This document shows positions 6,734 to 45,272 of a stretch of DNA of 46,546 nucleotides, piece by piece. The first letter of the stretch is position 1; the number at the start of each line of letters is the position of its first letter. The stretch is taken from positions 1 to 46,546 of the forward strand of contig WGEY01000047.1 of the NCBI GenBank assembly GCA_015492495.1. Reading direction: 5' to 3'. The notes under the pieces are model-generated. The model was given only the letters and a program-made list of their open reading frames with translations. It was not told the origin of the DNA and did no database searches. This DNA is from Deltaproteobacteria bacterium. GTDB taxonomy: Bacteria; Desulfobacterota; GWC2-55-46; DRQE01. The translations under genes and the position numbers were made by a program.

Positions 6734-7048
6734 GGGATCCCTGCCGCCTCCGTAAGCATTGGCCTTCATGCGGCCTTGAGGCAGGCGTTCCAGGTTGCGG
6801 GCGTTGGAGGTGGCTTCAACATTTCCGTCGTTTCGTACGATAAGTTAGGTAGGGGACGGCGAGACGGAGCGGGCAGGTTGCGCGCTGATTCGAAGACGCG
6901 GGCGAGCGCTTTACCCGCAGTGAGTTTCGACCGACGCGTGCTCTGATGACAGCGAAGGGTTACCTGTACTTGAAGGTCCCCTGTCCACAGGCGGGCAGGC
7001 CCGCGGCTTTTTGTTGTGGGGAGCTTCAATTATGTTCTTAGGGGTGTT
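6734..7048. other. Intergenic region trpA-accD with degenerate repeat
   Basis: These 315 bases hold no convincing gene; the small ORFs on either strand have no recognisable content. The second half (about 6889-7029) resembles a diverged member of the intergenic repeat family seen elsewhere in the window. It has CGAAGACGCGGGCGAGCG at its start, GGTTACCTGT in the middle and GGGGAGCTTCAAT at 7017-7029. No good promoter or terminator was found, so accD may be read from the trp operon or from an unrecognised promoter here. Confidence 0.5.
6889..7029 (+). repeat. Intergenic palindromic repeat, degenerate copy
   Basis: Partial match to the family consensus: TGAAGATGCATCGCGAGCG at one end appears as CGAAGACGCGGGCGAGCG, the inner block as AAGGGTTACCTGT, and the far end as CCCGCGGC...GTGGGGAGCTTCAA. 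It is longer than other copies because of extra bases inside the terminal hairpin. It ends 20 bases before the accD start codon. The assignment rests on eye alignment. Confidence 0.45.
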
Positions 7049-8004: not shown

Positions 8005-9297
8005 ATGCCTTCCCTCGAACAGACCCTGAAGTACCTTTACGGACTCGAGAGCCTCGGCATAAGGCCCGGGCTCGAGCGCATAAGGAGACTTCTCTCCCTT
8101 CTCGACGACCCGCATAACGCATACCCTTCCATACTCGTCGGCGGTACCAATGGAAAAGGCTCCACCTCCTCCATGGTCGCCTCCATACTGAAAGAAGCCG
8201 GCCACAGGACCGCCCTTTACACCTCACCCCACCTTCTCAGGTTCAACGAGCGTATAAGGGTTGACGGCAAAGAGATAACAGGCCGTGAGATCACGCGGCT
8301 TGTTGATAGGTTGAAGCCGCTGGCCGAGGATGTGGGGGATATGGGCTGCGGCAGGCCGTCCTTTTTCGAGTTCACCACAGCGCTGGCCTTCGAATACTTC
8401 AGGGAAAAGGAGGTTGACATAGCCGTCGTTGAGGTGGGCATGGGCGGGAGGTTCGATGCGACAAACGTGGTGCGCCCTTTCATCTCCATAATAACAAATG
8501 TCGCCGTTGATCATACACAATACCTCGGGACGAGCATCCGCGATATAGCGTATGAAAAGGCCGGCATCATAAGGGATGGCGCCATGGTCGTTGCTGGACG
8601 AAGCGACGAAGAGGCGCTCAGGGTGATCGAGAAGGTCGCCGGGGAGAAAGGGGCGAGGCTGTACCTTGCAGGAAGGGACTTCCGTGTAGAGCCGGACGGA
8701 GAGTACTTTAACTACTTCGGCTGGGGGGCGCCCTTGAAGGGGCTCTGTCTGAGCCTCGGCGGCCCACACCAGCTTGCGAACGCTGGTTGTGCGTTGAAGG
8801 CGGTGGAACTCGTGGCGCTTTCGGGCAGACGGGTTGAAGAGAAGGACATCAGAAGAGGCCTTGAGAGGACCCTGTGGCCCGGGAGGCTGGAGGTGGTGGG
8901 AAGGCGTCCAACAGTGGTGCTCGACTGTGCCCACAACGCCGCGGGTGCGAGGGCGCTCAGGGCTGCGTTGGGCGGCTTTGGTTGCCGCAGCATCGTGCTG
9001 GTCCTCGGTATAATGGCCGACAAGGATATCAGGGGTATAATGGCCGAGCTCGTCCCGCTTGCGCGTACCGTCGTGCTTACAGAACCGGCATACAGGAGGA
9101 GCGCCGGGACGGATAAACTCCTTGACGCTATGCGGGACTACAAGGGCAGGGTGATCGTAAGAAAGCGCGTGGCTTCGGCCTGCAGGGCGGCCCTGGAGGA
9201 TGCCTCGATGGATGACATGGTATGTATCGCCGGCTCGATATTCACCGTGGCGGAGGCAAAGCGGTATTTTTCCGCAAGGGCACGGCGTTCCCTGTGA
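8005..9297 (+). CDS. folC: Bifunctional folylpolyglutamate synthase / dihydrofolate synthase
   Basis: FolC adds glutamate to dihydropteroate and further glutamates to folates. It is 430 residues, typical in length. The Mur-ligase-like ATP loop GGTNGKGST is at 46-54, followed by YTSPHLLRFNERI (folate-binding loop), VEVGMGGRFDATN and the C-terminal domain start LDCAHN. It is 116 bases from accD. Its TGA stop (9295-9297) is also the first three bases of an intergenic repeat copy, so the repeat may have set the present C-terminus (ending ARARRSL). Confidence 0.94.
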   Translation: MPSLEQTLKYLYGLESLGIRPGLERIRRLLSLLDDPHNAYPSILVGGTNGKGSTSSMVASILKEAGHRTALYTSPHLLRFNERIRVDGKEITGREITRLVDRLKPLAEDVGDMGCGRPSFFEFTTALAFEYFREKEVDIAVVEVGMGGRFDATNVVRPFISIITNVAVDHTQYLGTSIRDIAYEKAGIIRDGAMVVAGRSDEEALRVIEKVAGEKGARLYLAGRDFRVEPDGEYFNYFGWGAPLKGLCLSLGGPHQLANAGCALKAVELVALSGRRVEEKDIRRGLERTLWPGRLEVVGRRPTVVLDCAHNAAGARALRAALGGFGCRSIVLVLGIMADKDIRGIMAELVPLARTVVLTEPAYRRSAGTDKLLDAMRDYKGRVIVRKRVASACRAALEDASMDDMVCIAGSIFTVAEAKRYFSARARRSL

Positions 9298-9411
9298 AGA
9301 TGCATCGCGAGCGCCGGTCCCGCAGCGTGCTGCGCGGTTAAGCGAGCGAAATGTAATCGGACAGTTCCTTACATGAGAAGATTACCTGTAGCCTGCTACA
9401 GGGAGCTTCAA
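9295..9411 (+). repeat. Intergenic palindromic repeat, full-length copy
   Basis: This copy starts TGAAGATGCATCGCGAGCGC, then GCGAGCGAAATGTAATCGGA and CCTTACATGAGAAGATTACC. It closes with the hairpin CCTGTAGC-CT-GCTACAGG followed by GAGCTTCAA. The outermost bases TGAAG and CTTCA are inverted. Closely similar block order is seen, reversed, at 45141-45270 and 28411-28519. The first three bases are the folC stop codon. Confidence 0.75.
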
Positions 9412-13660: not shown

Positions 13661-13687
13661 AGCGGGCTGCCCGCTATGCATCTTCAA
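13661..13687 (-). repeat. Intergenic repeat, end fragment
   Basis: On the minus strand this reads TTGAAGATGCATAGCGGGC, matching the TGAAGATGCATCGCGAGCG end of the repeat family. GGTTGCAC at 13629-13636 may belong to the same diverged copy (compare the copy at 15506). It stops three bases before the probable ATG of the following gene. Confidence 0.5.
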
Positions 13688-15448: not shown

Positions 15449-15776
15449 CATTTTATCCCATCTCATCCACTTCATCATCTGCTGTACGGCCACACCGGCC
15501 TTTCATGAACGTGCGTCGCTAGCGCCTGTGCGGGTTCCGGTGTCAACGAACGGAGTGCAACCGGATAACGCCTTTCAGGAGAAGATTTCCAGCGACTTTA
15601 CACGGTAAGCCCCAAAAAGTACACCCTTCCCCCTTAAGCAATGAGTCCTTACTGTCGAAGATATTATTATGTTCGGGAAAAAACCGGCCGACCTAAAACA
15701 GCCTGGATGGCGGGCGTTTGCACCTCGCCGCAGACGGTCGTAAAGACCCGGAAAACACACAACATTGAGGTGGCTT
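15449..15776. other. Intergenic region tRNA-Met to EAL-HDOD gene
   Basis: These 328 bases hold no credible ORF. They include a truncated copy of the intergenic repeat (15506-15590). Near 15675-15715 lies a GC-rich stretch with CCGGCC, CCTAAAA, CAGCCTGGATGGC and GGG that loosely recalls the 3' half of c-di-GMP-I (GEMM) riboswitches. The conserved 5' half is not recognisable, so no riboswitch is called. Confidence 0.45.
15506..15590 (+). repeat. Intergenic palindromic repeat, diverged and truncated copy
   Basis: TGAACGTGCGTCGCTAGCGC matches the family start. It is followed by CGAACGGAGTGCAACCGGA (compare CGAGCGAAATGTAATCGGA) and CCTTTCAGGAGAAGATT (compare CCTTACATGAGAAGATT). The terminal CCCTG...CAGGG hairpin is missing. 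Confidence 0.6.
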
Positions 15777-28410: not shown

Positions 28411-28519
28411 TTAAAATTCCCTGCAGCTTGCTTCAGGTAATCTTTGCATCTAAGGGATCGATTAAACTTCGCTCGCCGACCCCGTAGCCCGCTTCGGGGG
28501 CGCTCGCGATTCATGTTCA
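28411..28519 (-). repeat. Intergenic palindromic repeat forming the rplU leader
   Basis: Read on the minus strand: TGAACATGAATCGCGAGCGC, a hairpin CCCCCGAAGCGGGCTACGGGG, GCGAGCGAAGTTTAATCGA, CCTTAGATGCAAAGATTACC, and the end hairpin CCTGAAGCAAGCTGCAGGG. The order of blocks matches the copies at 9295 and 45141. It lies between the predicted start of transcription and the rplU ribosome binding site. Confidence 0.7.
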
Positions 28520-28537
28520 CATACACGGAGGACGGAG

Positions 28538-29323: not shown

Positions 29324-31473
<2,150 letters not shown>

Positions 31474-31476
<3 letters not shown>

Positions 31477-31550
31477 ACATGCATCGCGAGCGCCTGTCTG
31501 CCGTACCGGGACAGGCAGGCATTCCCTGCGGCTTGCCGCGGGGAGCTCAA
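31474..31550 (+). repeat. Intergenic palindromic repeat, short copy
   Basis: TGAACATGCATCGCGAGCGC, an inner hairpin CCTGTC...GGACAGG, then the end hairpin CCCTGCGGC-TT-GCCGCGGGG and AGCTCAA. It lacks the GCGAGCGAAATGTAATCG block of longer copies. Its first three bases are the proB stop codon, and it sits between proB and proA. Confidence 0.75.
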
Positions 31551-41850: not shown

Positions 41851-41964
41851 ATGTTAGCGCTGTTGACGTTGCTGGTCCTTGGGTTTGCGTTCCTGGCCTA
41901 CTGGACGGTGCATGACATGAAGGCGATCTTGGAGGGTAAGGAGTTCAGGTTCGGACACAGGTGA
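41851..41964 (+). CDS. 37-residue single-pass membrane microprotein
   Basis: A short ORF with a ribosome binding site (GGTGAGG, 41841-41847) three bases before ATG 41851. The product MLALLTLLVLGFAFLAYWTV begins with a membrane helix. A charged cytoplasmic or periplasmic tail follows with HDMKAILEGKEFRFGHR. The upstream TATAAT, clear ribosome binding site and amphipathic tail favour a real gene. I do not recognise the family; it could be a small accessory subunit of a membrane complex. The nearest genes are tRNA-Gly and the divergent aldehyde dehydrogenase. Confidence 0.6.
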   Translation: MLALLTLLVLGFAFLAYWTVHDMKAILEGKEFRFGHR

Positions 41965-42024
41965 ATGTCCATGGGCCGGAATGCATAAACCGCCTTGTAA
42001 CGGCACACCGCCCGGTGTTTGCCG

Positions 42025-42056
42025 GAAGCTCTCCAGGTCCGCGCCTGGAGAGCTTC
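42025..42056. repeat. Perfect 13-bp inverted repeat, repeat-family-like hairpin
   Basis: GAAGCTCTCCAGG (42025-42037) and CCTGGAGAGCTTC (42044-42056) with a six-base loop TCCGCG. The arms resemble the GGGAGCTTC hairpin end of the intergenic repeat family. No U-tract follows, so it is not a standard terminator. Confidence 0.7.
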
Positions 42057-42193
42057 AACCGATCCTTGCATTTGAAGGCTCCGCTTCCTTGCCGCAGGTG
42101 GAGAGGGGATCTTCAGGTGTAAGGATTTTTTTGTCACTCCCTTCAGCCATTCACCACGCATCGATCCCATACAGCGGGCCGGATGATTTGGAC

Positions 42194-45140: not shown

Positions 45141-45270
45141 TTGAAGCTCCCTGCGGCGGGCCAGGCCTGCCCGTAGCAGCAGGGAACCTTCTCGCATAAG
45201 GTTGTTCGATTACATTACGCTCGTCAATCTCCGATCAGGCTTCATGGAATGCCCTTGCGATGCATCTTCA
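45141..45270 (-). repeat. Intergenic palindromic repeat, full-length copy
   Basis: On the minus strand: TGAAGATGCATCGCAAGGGC, GACGAGCGTAATGTAATCGA, CCTTATGCGAGAAGGTTCCC, then the hairpin CCTGCTGC...GCCGCAGG ending GGAGCTTCAA. Blocks align one-for-one with the copy at 9295-9411. It begins two bases after the stop codon of the diguanylate cyclase. Confidence 0.75.
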
Positions 45271-45272
45271 GC

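Follow-up and report, generated by a model that had tools for sequence, protein, structure and literature searches.

The palindromic repeat that recurs in the stretch of DNA analysed here (the window; 46,546 nt, contig C47 of the 2.26-Mb draft genome G000) is very probably a non-autonomous, gene-free transposable element of the IS200/IS605 type (Y1 HUH transposase, single-strand "peel and paste" movement), in effect a palindrome-associated transposable element (PATE), a membership assigned by mechanism only. On the best reading of the data, the family is new in sequence, widespread, PATE-like and mobilised in trans, and is not a REP. It represents a recently active miniature transposon of uncultured bacteria.

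In the mechanism proposed, one strand of the element (about 110 nt) would form a hairpin towards each end and a helix between its left end and the bases preceding the right-hand hairpin. Cutting would be done in trans by a Y1-type transposase: one cut 3′ of TGAA, which would stay in the left flank, the other 3′ of TCAA at the right end, each guided by the tetranucleotide immediately 5′ of the hairpin concerned (CATT and GATT). The element would presumably leave as a circle and be re-inserted 3′ of a further TGAA, with a preference for the lagging-strand template.

Copies in the window, in its genome and in relatives

A covariance model (R1) built from 15 copies in G000 gave five strong matches in the window, from 34 to 118 bits, all five of them intergenic. 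The corresponding features are as follows.

9295 to 9298, forward strand: target TGAA of copy 1, a role established in G043 by empty sites defined to the base; the TGA within it terminates a Mur-ligase (folC-like) gene at 8005 to 9297 (end of the open reading frame, Pfam)
9299 to 9411, forward strand: copy 1, near full-length, ending TTCAA (R1 match 9294 to 9411, 118 bits, E = 9e-31)
9319 to 9337, forward strand: hairpin 1 (left) of copy 1 (sequence, fold, paired columns)
9385 to 9402, forward strand: hairpin 2 (right) of copy 1 (sequence, fold, paired columns)
15506 to 15509, forward strand: target TGAA of copy 5
15510 to 15590, forward strand: copy 5, diverged, left end and centre kept, right end decayed (R1 match 15505 to 15615, 38.7 bits)
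28411 to 28515, reverse strand: copy 2, between a secretin gene and rplU (start 28538) (R1 match 28411 to 28520, 93 bits)
28516 to 28519, reverse strand: target TGAA of copy 2
31474 to 31477, forward strand: target TGAA of copy 3, the TGA of which terminates a glutamate kinase-like gene (AA_kinase and PUA) at 30343 to 31476
31478 to 31550, forward strand: copy 3, core-deleted, 77 bp when counted from 31474 (R1 match 31473 to 31550, 33.6 bits, E = 2e-7)
45141 to 45266, reverse strand: copy 4, hairpin 2 enlarged, between a BamE-like gene and a GGDEF gene (R1 match 45141 to 45271, 56 bits)
45267 to 45270, reverse strand: target TGAA of copy 4

Seven copies had been listed in the initial annotation. 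Those beginning at 9295, 15506, 28411, 31474 and 45141 are the strong R1 matches, whereas 6889 to 7029 (12.5 bits, E = 0.1) and 13661 to 13687 (15 bits, E = 0.02) were not retained as family members. The 5′ boundary given for the copies has to be moved: TGAA is the target site and lies outside the element. Two weak R1 matches on opposite strands at 41961 to 42154, upstream of tRNA-Gly (11.9 and 9.6 bits), are possibly decayed copies.

A search of the whole genome and of relatives, proposed initially as a check, placed the family well beyond the window. G000 contains 129 R1 matches at E ≤ 1, 69 to 79 of them strong, and these genome-wide counts rule out chance. Within the order, 25 of 48 genomes carry the element, very unevenly: G029, G036, G046 and G043 have at least 73 copies each at E ≤ 1e-4, and four genomes of the same genus as G043 (G023, G026, G041 and G042) have none. 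In the window's own family, G007 alone was positive, with one weak match; in the sample of the phylum, 27 of 395 genomes, belonging to 18 genera, were. In three Candidatus Manganitrophus plasmids (Nitrospirota) there is a full-length copy, 78 to 79 percent identical to the G029 sequence, and relatives of the element were found in many other soil and groundwater bacteria, some with fresh identical copies. This patchy distribution fits the horizontal spread of a mobile element, and the element accounts for a repeat that clutters the annotation and assembly of these genomes. None was found in the phages searched. Pattern matches in viral contigs were dismissed as chance. For the exact 19-mer matches in Methylocystis and others, a scan of L090, L092 and L094 with a model designated R2 returned no element match.

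Mobility, boundaries and target site

The mobility of the element, its boundaries, its target, the absence of a target duplication other than AA, and its tandem junctions were observed directly. Ten 110-bp copies in G029 are letter-for-letter identical and have unrelated flanks; TGAA constitutes the first invariant flank letters, and beyond TTCAA, on the right, the sequence is random. Two places of another dispersed repeat in G043 repeatedly contain the element, and uninterrupted versions of both were found. The empty forms read GCAGCTGAA^(G/T)CTTTTTGAGCAGCCTGAA^(C/T)AAATTCCGG, also described as GCAGCTGAA^CTTTTTGAG-type, and the filled forms GCAGCTGAA[TATGC...GGGAGCTTCAA](T/C)CTTTTTGAG and GAGCAGCCTGAA[TATGC...GGGAGCTTCAA](T/C)AAATT, such that the filled elements run TATGC...GCTTCAA at two TGAA sites. 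These pairs establish insertion directly 3′ of TGAA without target duplication, bar a 2-bp ambiguity from the AA common to target and right end. The element proper thus begins after TGAA and ends TTCAA. A reading of TGAAG/CTTCA as terminal inverted repeats is not supported: TGAA is the target and TTCAA is the right-end cleavage site.

An empty site was also found by orthology, one G043 copy being missing at the corresponding locus in G023 and G041, where the exact join is blurred through intergenic divergence. Together with the copies across the genome and its relatives and the covarying hairpins, the empty sites support the initial suggestion of a miniature mobile element. Tandem pairs occur in three genomes, one copy running straight into the next (TTCAA^NATGC) without an intervening TGAA, which is what a right-left junction should look like. 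The element frequently hits a second dispersed repeat of G043, CTCATTCCTCGCTTCTCGACGCCTTGCAGCTGAA[G/T]CTTTTTGAGCAGCCTGAA[C/T]AAATTCCGGGTTTTTCAGCAACCTG (L195 to L223; for example, the flanks of L205 and L206).

ERIC, RUP and Correia/NEMIS sequences are intergenic palindromic mobile repeats of about 100 to 150 bp, and are DDE-type miniature elements (MITEs) with terminal inverted repeats and TA duplications. The element resembles them in size, palindromes, mobility and intergenic position but has neither their terminal inverted repeats nor their TA duplications. A MITE of a DDE transposon was rejected, as TGAA belongs to the target and there is no duplication beyond the AA ambiguity. The filled and empty sites are also compatible with an AA core on both sides, TG^AA[...TTC]^AA, as would be produced by a miniature element whose recombinase is site-specific and uses a 2-bp core (IS607 serine recombinase or IS110 type). 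Such an origin is improbable, however, because it does not predict guided single-strand hairpins, the TG before the core, a strand bias or random right flanks.

Architecture, putative guides and an end-to-end helix

The conserved block order noted initially was recovered: TGAA[C/G]ATGCATCGCGAGCG, hairpin 1, GCGAGCGAAATGTAATCG, TTCCTTACATGAGAAGATT, hairpin 2, GAGCTTCAA. The element is about 110 nt long and without coding capacity, and its palindromes lie close to both ends, with a longer spacing on the 5′ side (about 19 nt ahead of hairpin 1, 7 nt past hairpin 2). No Rfam family matches it. Most copies in G000 measure 110 to 118 bp; forms of 82 bp (L017, L021) are without hairpin 1, and forms of about 145 bp contain an extra nested hairpin, CTGTCTGCG...CGCAGACAGG, ahead of it. 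In copy 3, the left end is followed by an extra nested hairpin, a fused hairpin 1/2 and the right end. About one third of the own-genome copies (L009, L011 to L016, L024, L029) form a nested, longer subfamily: a further hairpin, CTGTCTGC...GCAGGCATT, is inserted after GCGAGCGC and ahead of hairpin 1, whose foot in most of them still has the CATT guide.

Covariation was observed directly for the hairpins and for the helix. That the hairpin arms differ while pairing is retained, as stated in the initial annotation, is evident from the 15 own-genome copies, in which both sides had changed at 8 pairs compared with 3.8 in shuffles, a value as high as 8 occurring in 1 of 500 shuffles. Besides the hairpins, the opening bases of the element form a helix with those immediately ahead of hairpin 2, and both sides change together: ACACATA/TATGTGT, AAATGCA/TGCATTT, AAACC/GGTTT, ATATG/CATAT, ACCG/CGGT, ACTG/CAGT, CAGG/CCTG, ACAAG/CTTGT and AAATTT/AAATTT, the first A being the last target base in some of them. 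Over 23 left-end classes, the summed complementary run was 100 versus 68 (SD 4.2) for permuted partners, and the maximum of 100,000 partner permutations was 88, none reaching 100 (p ≤ 1e-5, a value to be taken only as a guide because related lineages are not fully independent). An earlier test on 11 classes had yielded p = 6.5e-4. This helix takes the place of a middle helix, ATGTAA/TTACAT, which was derived from G000 and discarded on account of its poor conservation in other lineages.

The end-to-end helix would hold both cleavage sites together; it is an added structural feature, which the available part of the descriptions of such elements does not mention. The element might even be a self-assembling single-strand transposon, a very small parasite in which the helix joins the cleavage sites within one strand and which is moved, even between phyla, by an enzyme outside the known Y1 families. 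Such an enzyme is conceivable, as no intact member of those families was found where the copies are freshest, and this reading retains a small but real probability.

The hairpin feet bear on the IS200/IS605-type reading. IS608 inserts 3′ of TTAC, its left cleavage site, has TCAA as right cleavage site and forms a circular junction; its guides, AAAG and GAAT, are the tetranucleotides 5′ of the end hairpins (PMC5934647). From its two pairs a rule was derived by which guide bases 1 and 2 are the reverse complement of cleavage bases 1 and 2, and guide base 4 complements cleavage base 4. The fit of the element to this rule was directly observed in 92 aligned matches, the columns of which are anchored on the hairpins because the alignment was fitted to them: TGAA with CATT ahead of hairpin 1 (50 of 92) and TCAA with GATT ahead of hairpin 2 (58 of 92) both obey it. 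A right end TTAA goes with AATT (lineages G028, G045 and G311), and the left target TCAA of G028 with GACT. Misfits are GAGA with TGAA on the left in G016 and G020, and decayed copies. Guide and target are conserved in most lineages, so that independent covariation between them comes from three or four. Judged from sequence, the predicted guides fit the IS608-type rule, and the many lineages of the element constitute a natural test of the IS608 guide code outside the laboratory, target and guide changing together.

Strand bias and position relative to genes

A strand bias was observed directly in G029, where the top strand of the element lies on the G-rich strand in 43 of 64 copies (p = 2e-4; oriented GC skew, with incomplete control for gene orientation); the count is 42 of 63 when only DNA 3 to 9.5 kb away is considered (p = 0.002). 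This is the direction predicted for the lagging-strand template, and the bias could partly reflect gene orientation. In G000 the tendency points the same way but falls short of significance (p = 0.065); G043, examined with short flanks only, shows none (p = 0.34).

Window copies 1 and 3 are situated exactly at stop codons. An upstream frame of at least 100 codons ends at the target TGA for 7 of 39 copies in G000 and 7 of 44 in G029, and the other reading frames give similar totals; placement at stop codons is, therefore, a consequence of the target and not proven selection. Stop-codon positions, covarying helices and the intergenic location of the strong window copies (5 of 5) would likewise suit a structured RNA or regulatory repeat (attenuator, mRNA stabiliser) that is under selection and has multiplied by duplication. 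Yet neither neighbour genes nor their orientation are consistent (25 ++, 14 -+, 12 +- and 11 --), and the similar counts for other frames, the precise insertion at TGAA, identical copies at unrelated sites, the patchy distribution and the lack of an Rfam match make this explanation very improbable.

Relation to known single-strand elements

According to the available part of their description, the PATEs of Haloquadratum walsbyi are too short for a transposase, have palindromes near both ends that are spaced more widely at the 5′ than at the 3′ end, a 4 to 5 bp target at the 5′ end and no target duplication, occur as core-deleted forms down to about 50 bp, and moved recently despite broken local IS200 transposases (PMC3119063). 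As far as that part goes, the element shares the size limit, palindromes, 5′ target, lack of duplication, spacing and core deletions, and with its recent movement it poses the same enzyme puzzle as in Haloquadratum (PMC3119063). It differs in that no resident transposon of the IS605 type was found to share its ends, in its covarying end-to-end helix, none being reported for PATEs in that part of the description, and in spanning several families of one phylum as well as Nitrospirota plasmids.

Like IS608 and ISDra2, it enters 3′ of a short target that remains in the left flank, has a guide tetranucleotide ahead of each hairpin and forms right end-left end junctions (PMC5934647, PMC8612924); with IS608 it also shares the right cleavage site TCAA (PMC5934647). 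Unlike both, it is devoid of tnpA and tnpB, its putative guides are CATT and GATT, and its target is TGAA, not TTAC or TTGAT.

Search for the moving enzyme

The element sharpens the question as to which enzyme moves transposase-free single-strand elements. By its mechanism, the enzyme is probably of the Y1 class. G000 has two IS200 transposase genes, with end hairpins unlike those of the element, and those Y1 transposases of carriers that were inspected (L031, L032, L145) differ from it in hairpins and end sites. L031 (G000:C68) and L032 (G000:C9) are IS200-type transposases of about 143 aa with end hairpins ACCAGACTCCTGTCTGGT and CCCCCGACTCCTGCCGGGGG. G029, which has the freshest copies, gave no Y1_Tnp match, and its RAYT-like gene is a short fragment only. 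At the start of its contig C13 (L182 1 to 360), a RAYT-like frame loses similarity past the HUH region, and the contig-end sequence beside it resembles, by eye, the start of an IS30-type transposase.

A search of 400 kb of G029 for genes bounded by an orphan left or right end returned only short and core-deleted forms, the TnpB C-terminal motif was absent from the 1.76 Mb scanned, and IS91-type Y2 transposase (PF04986) had no match, the control genomes being equally silent. In the genomes and loci inspected, neither a transposase recognising the element's ends nor an autonomous partner was found, which is weak evidence, given that draft assemblies such as these often lack multi-copy IS elements.

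REP and REPIN sequences are high-copy hairpin repeats thought to be moved in trans by a Y1 enzyme (PMC3116915, PMC8266576, PMC3733652), and a REP-associated tyrosine transposase (TnpA-REP, RAYT) had been put forward initially as the enzyme to look for. The element, too, is a high-copy hairpin repeat, and RAYTs, themselves Y1 enzymes, are frequent in the order, where 24 of 48 genomes exceed the cut-off. However, aligned copies have no GTAG or CGTC tag at the hairpin foot, and the ends are TGAA and TCAA, not CT. Nor do RAYT genes track the element: none is over cut-off (NF047646) in the window's genome and only the fragment is present in copy-rich G029, whereas G023, G026, G041 and G042 have RAYTs and zero copies. 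The RAYTs inspected stand beside other palindromes, namely, GTAG REPs (GTAGGATGGGTT...CCCATC) in G036 and G046 and a GTTGGGTTA palindrome in G043, and no element copy was detected at the RAYT loci scanned. A REP or REPIN moved by a RAYT is, hence, quite improbable.

The RAYT genes at L227 6600 to 7600 (G036) and L158 1150 to 2090 (G046) are accompanied by several GTAG-type REPs (GTAGGATGGGTTGAGCGCAGCGAAGCCCATC); this is a classical REPtron of a different family. In G044 (L183 360 to 1440), a large complex palindrome (GCGCGCGAGCTTGC...) occurs on both sides of an EF-P-like gene, beside a RAYT-like gene.
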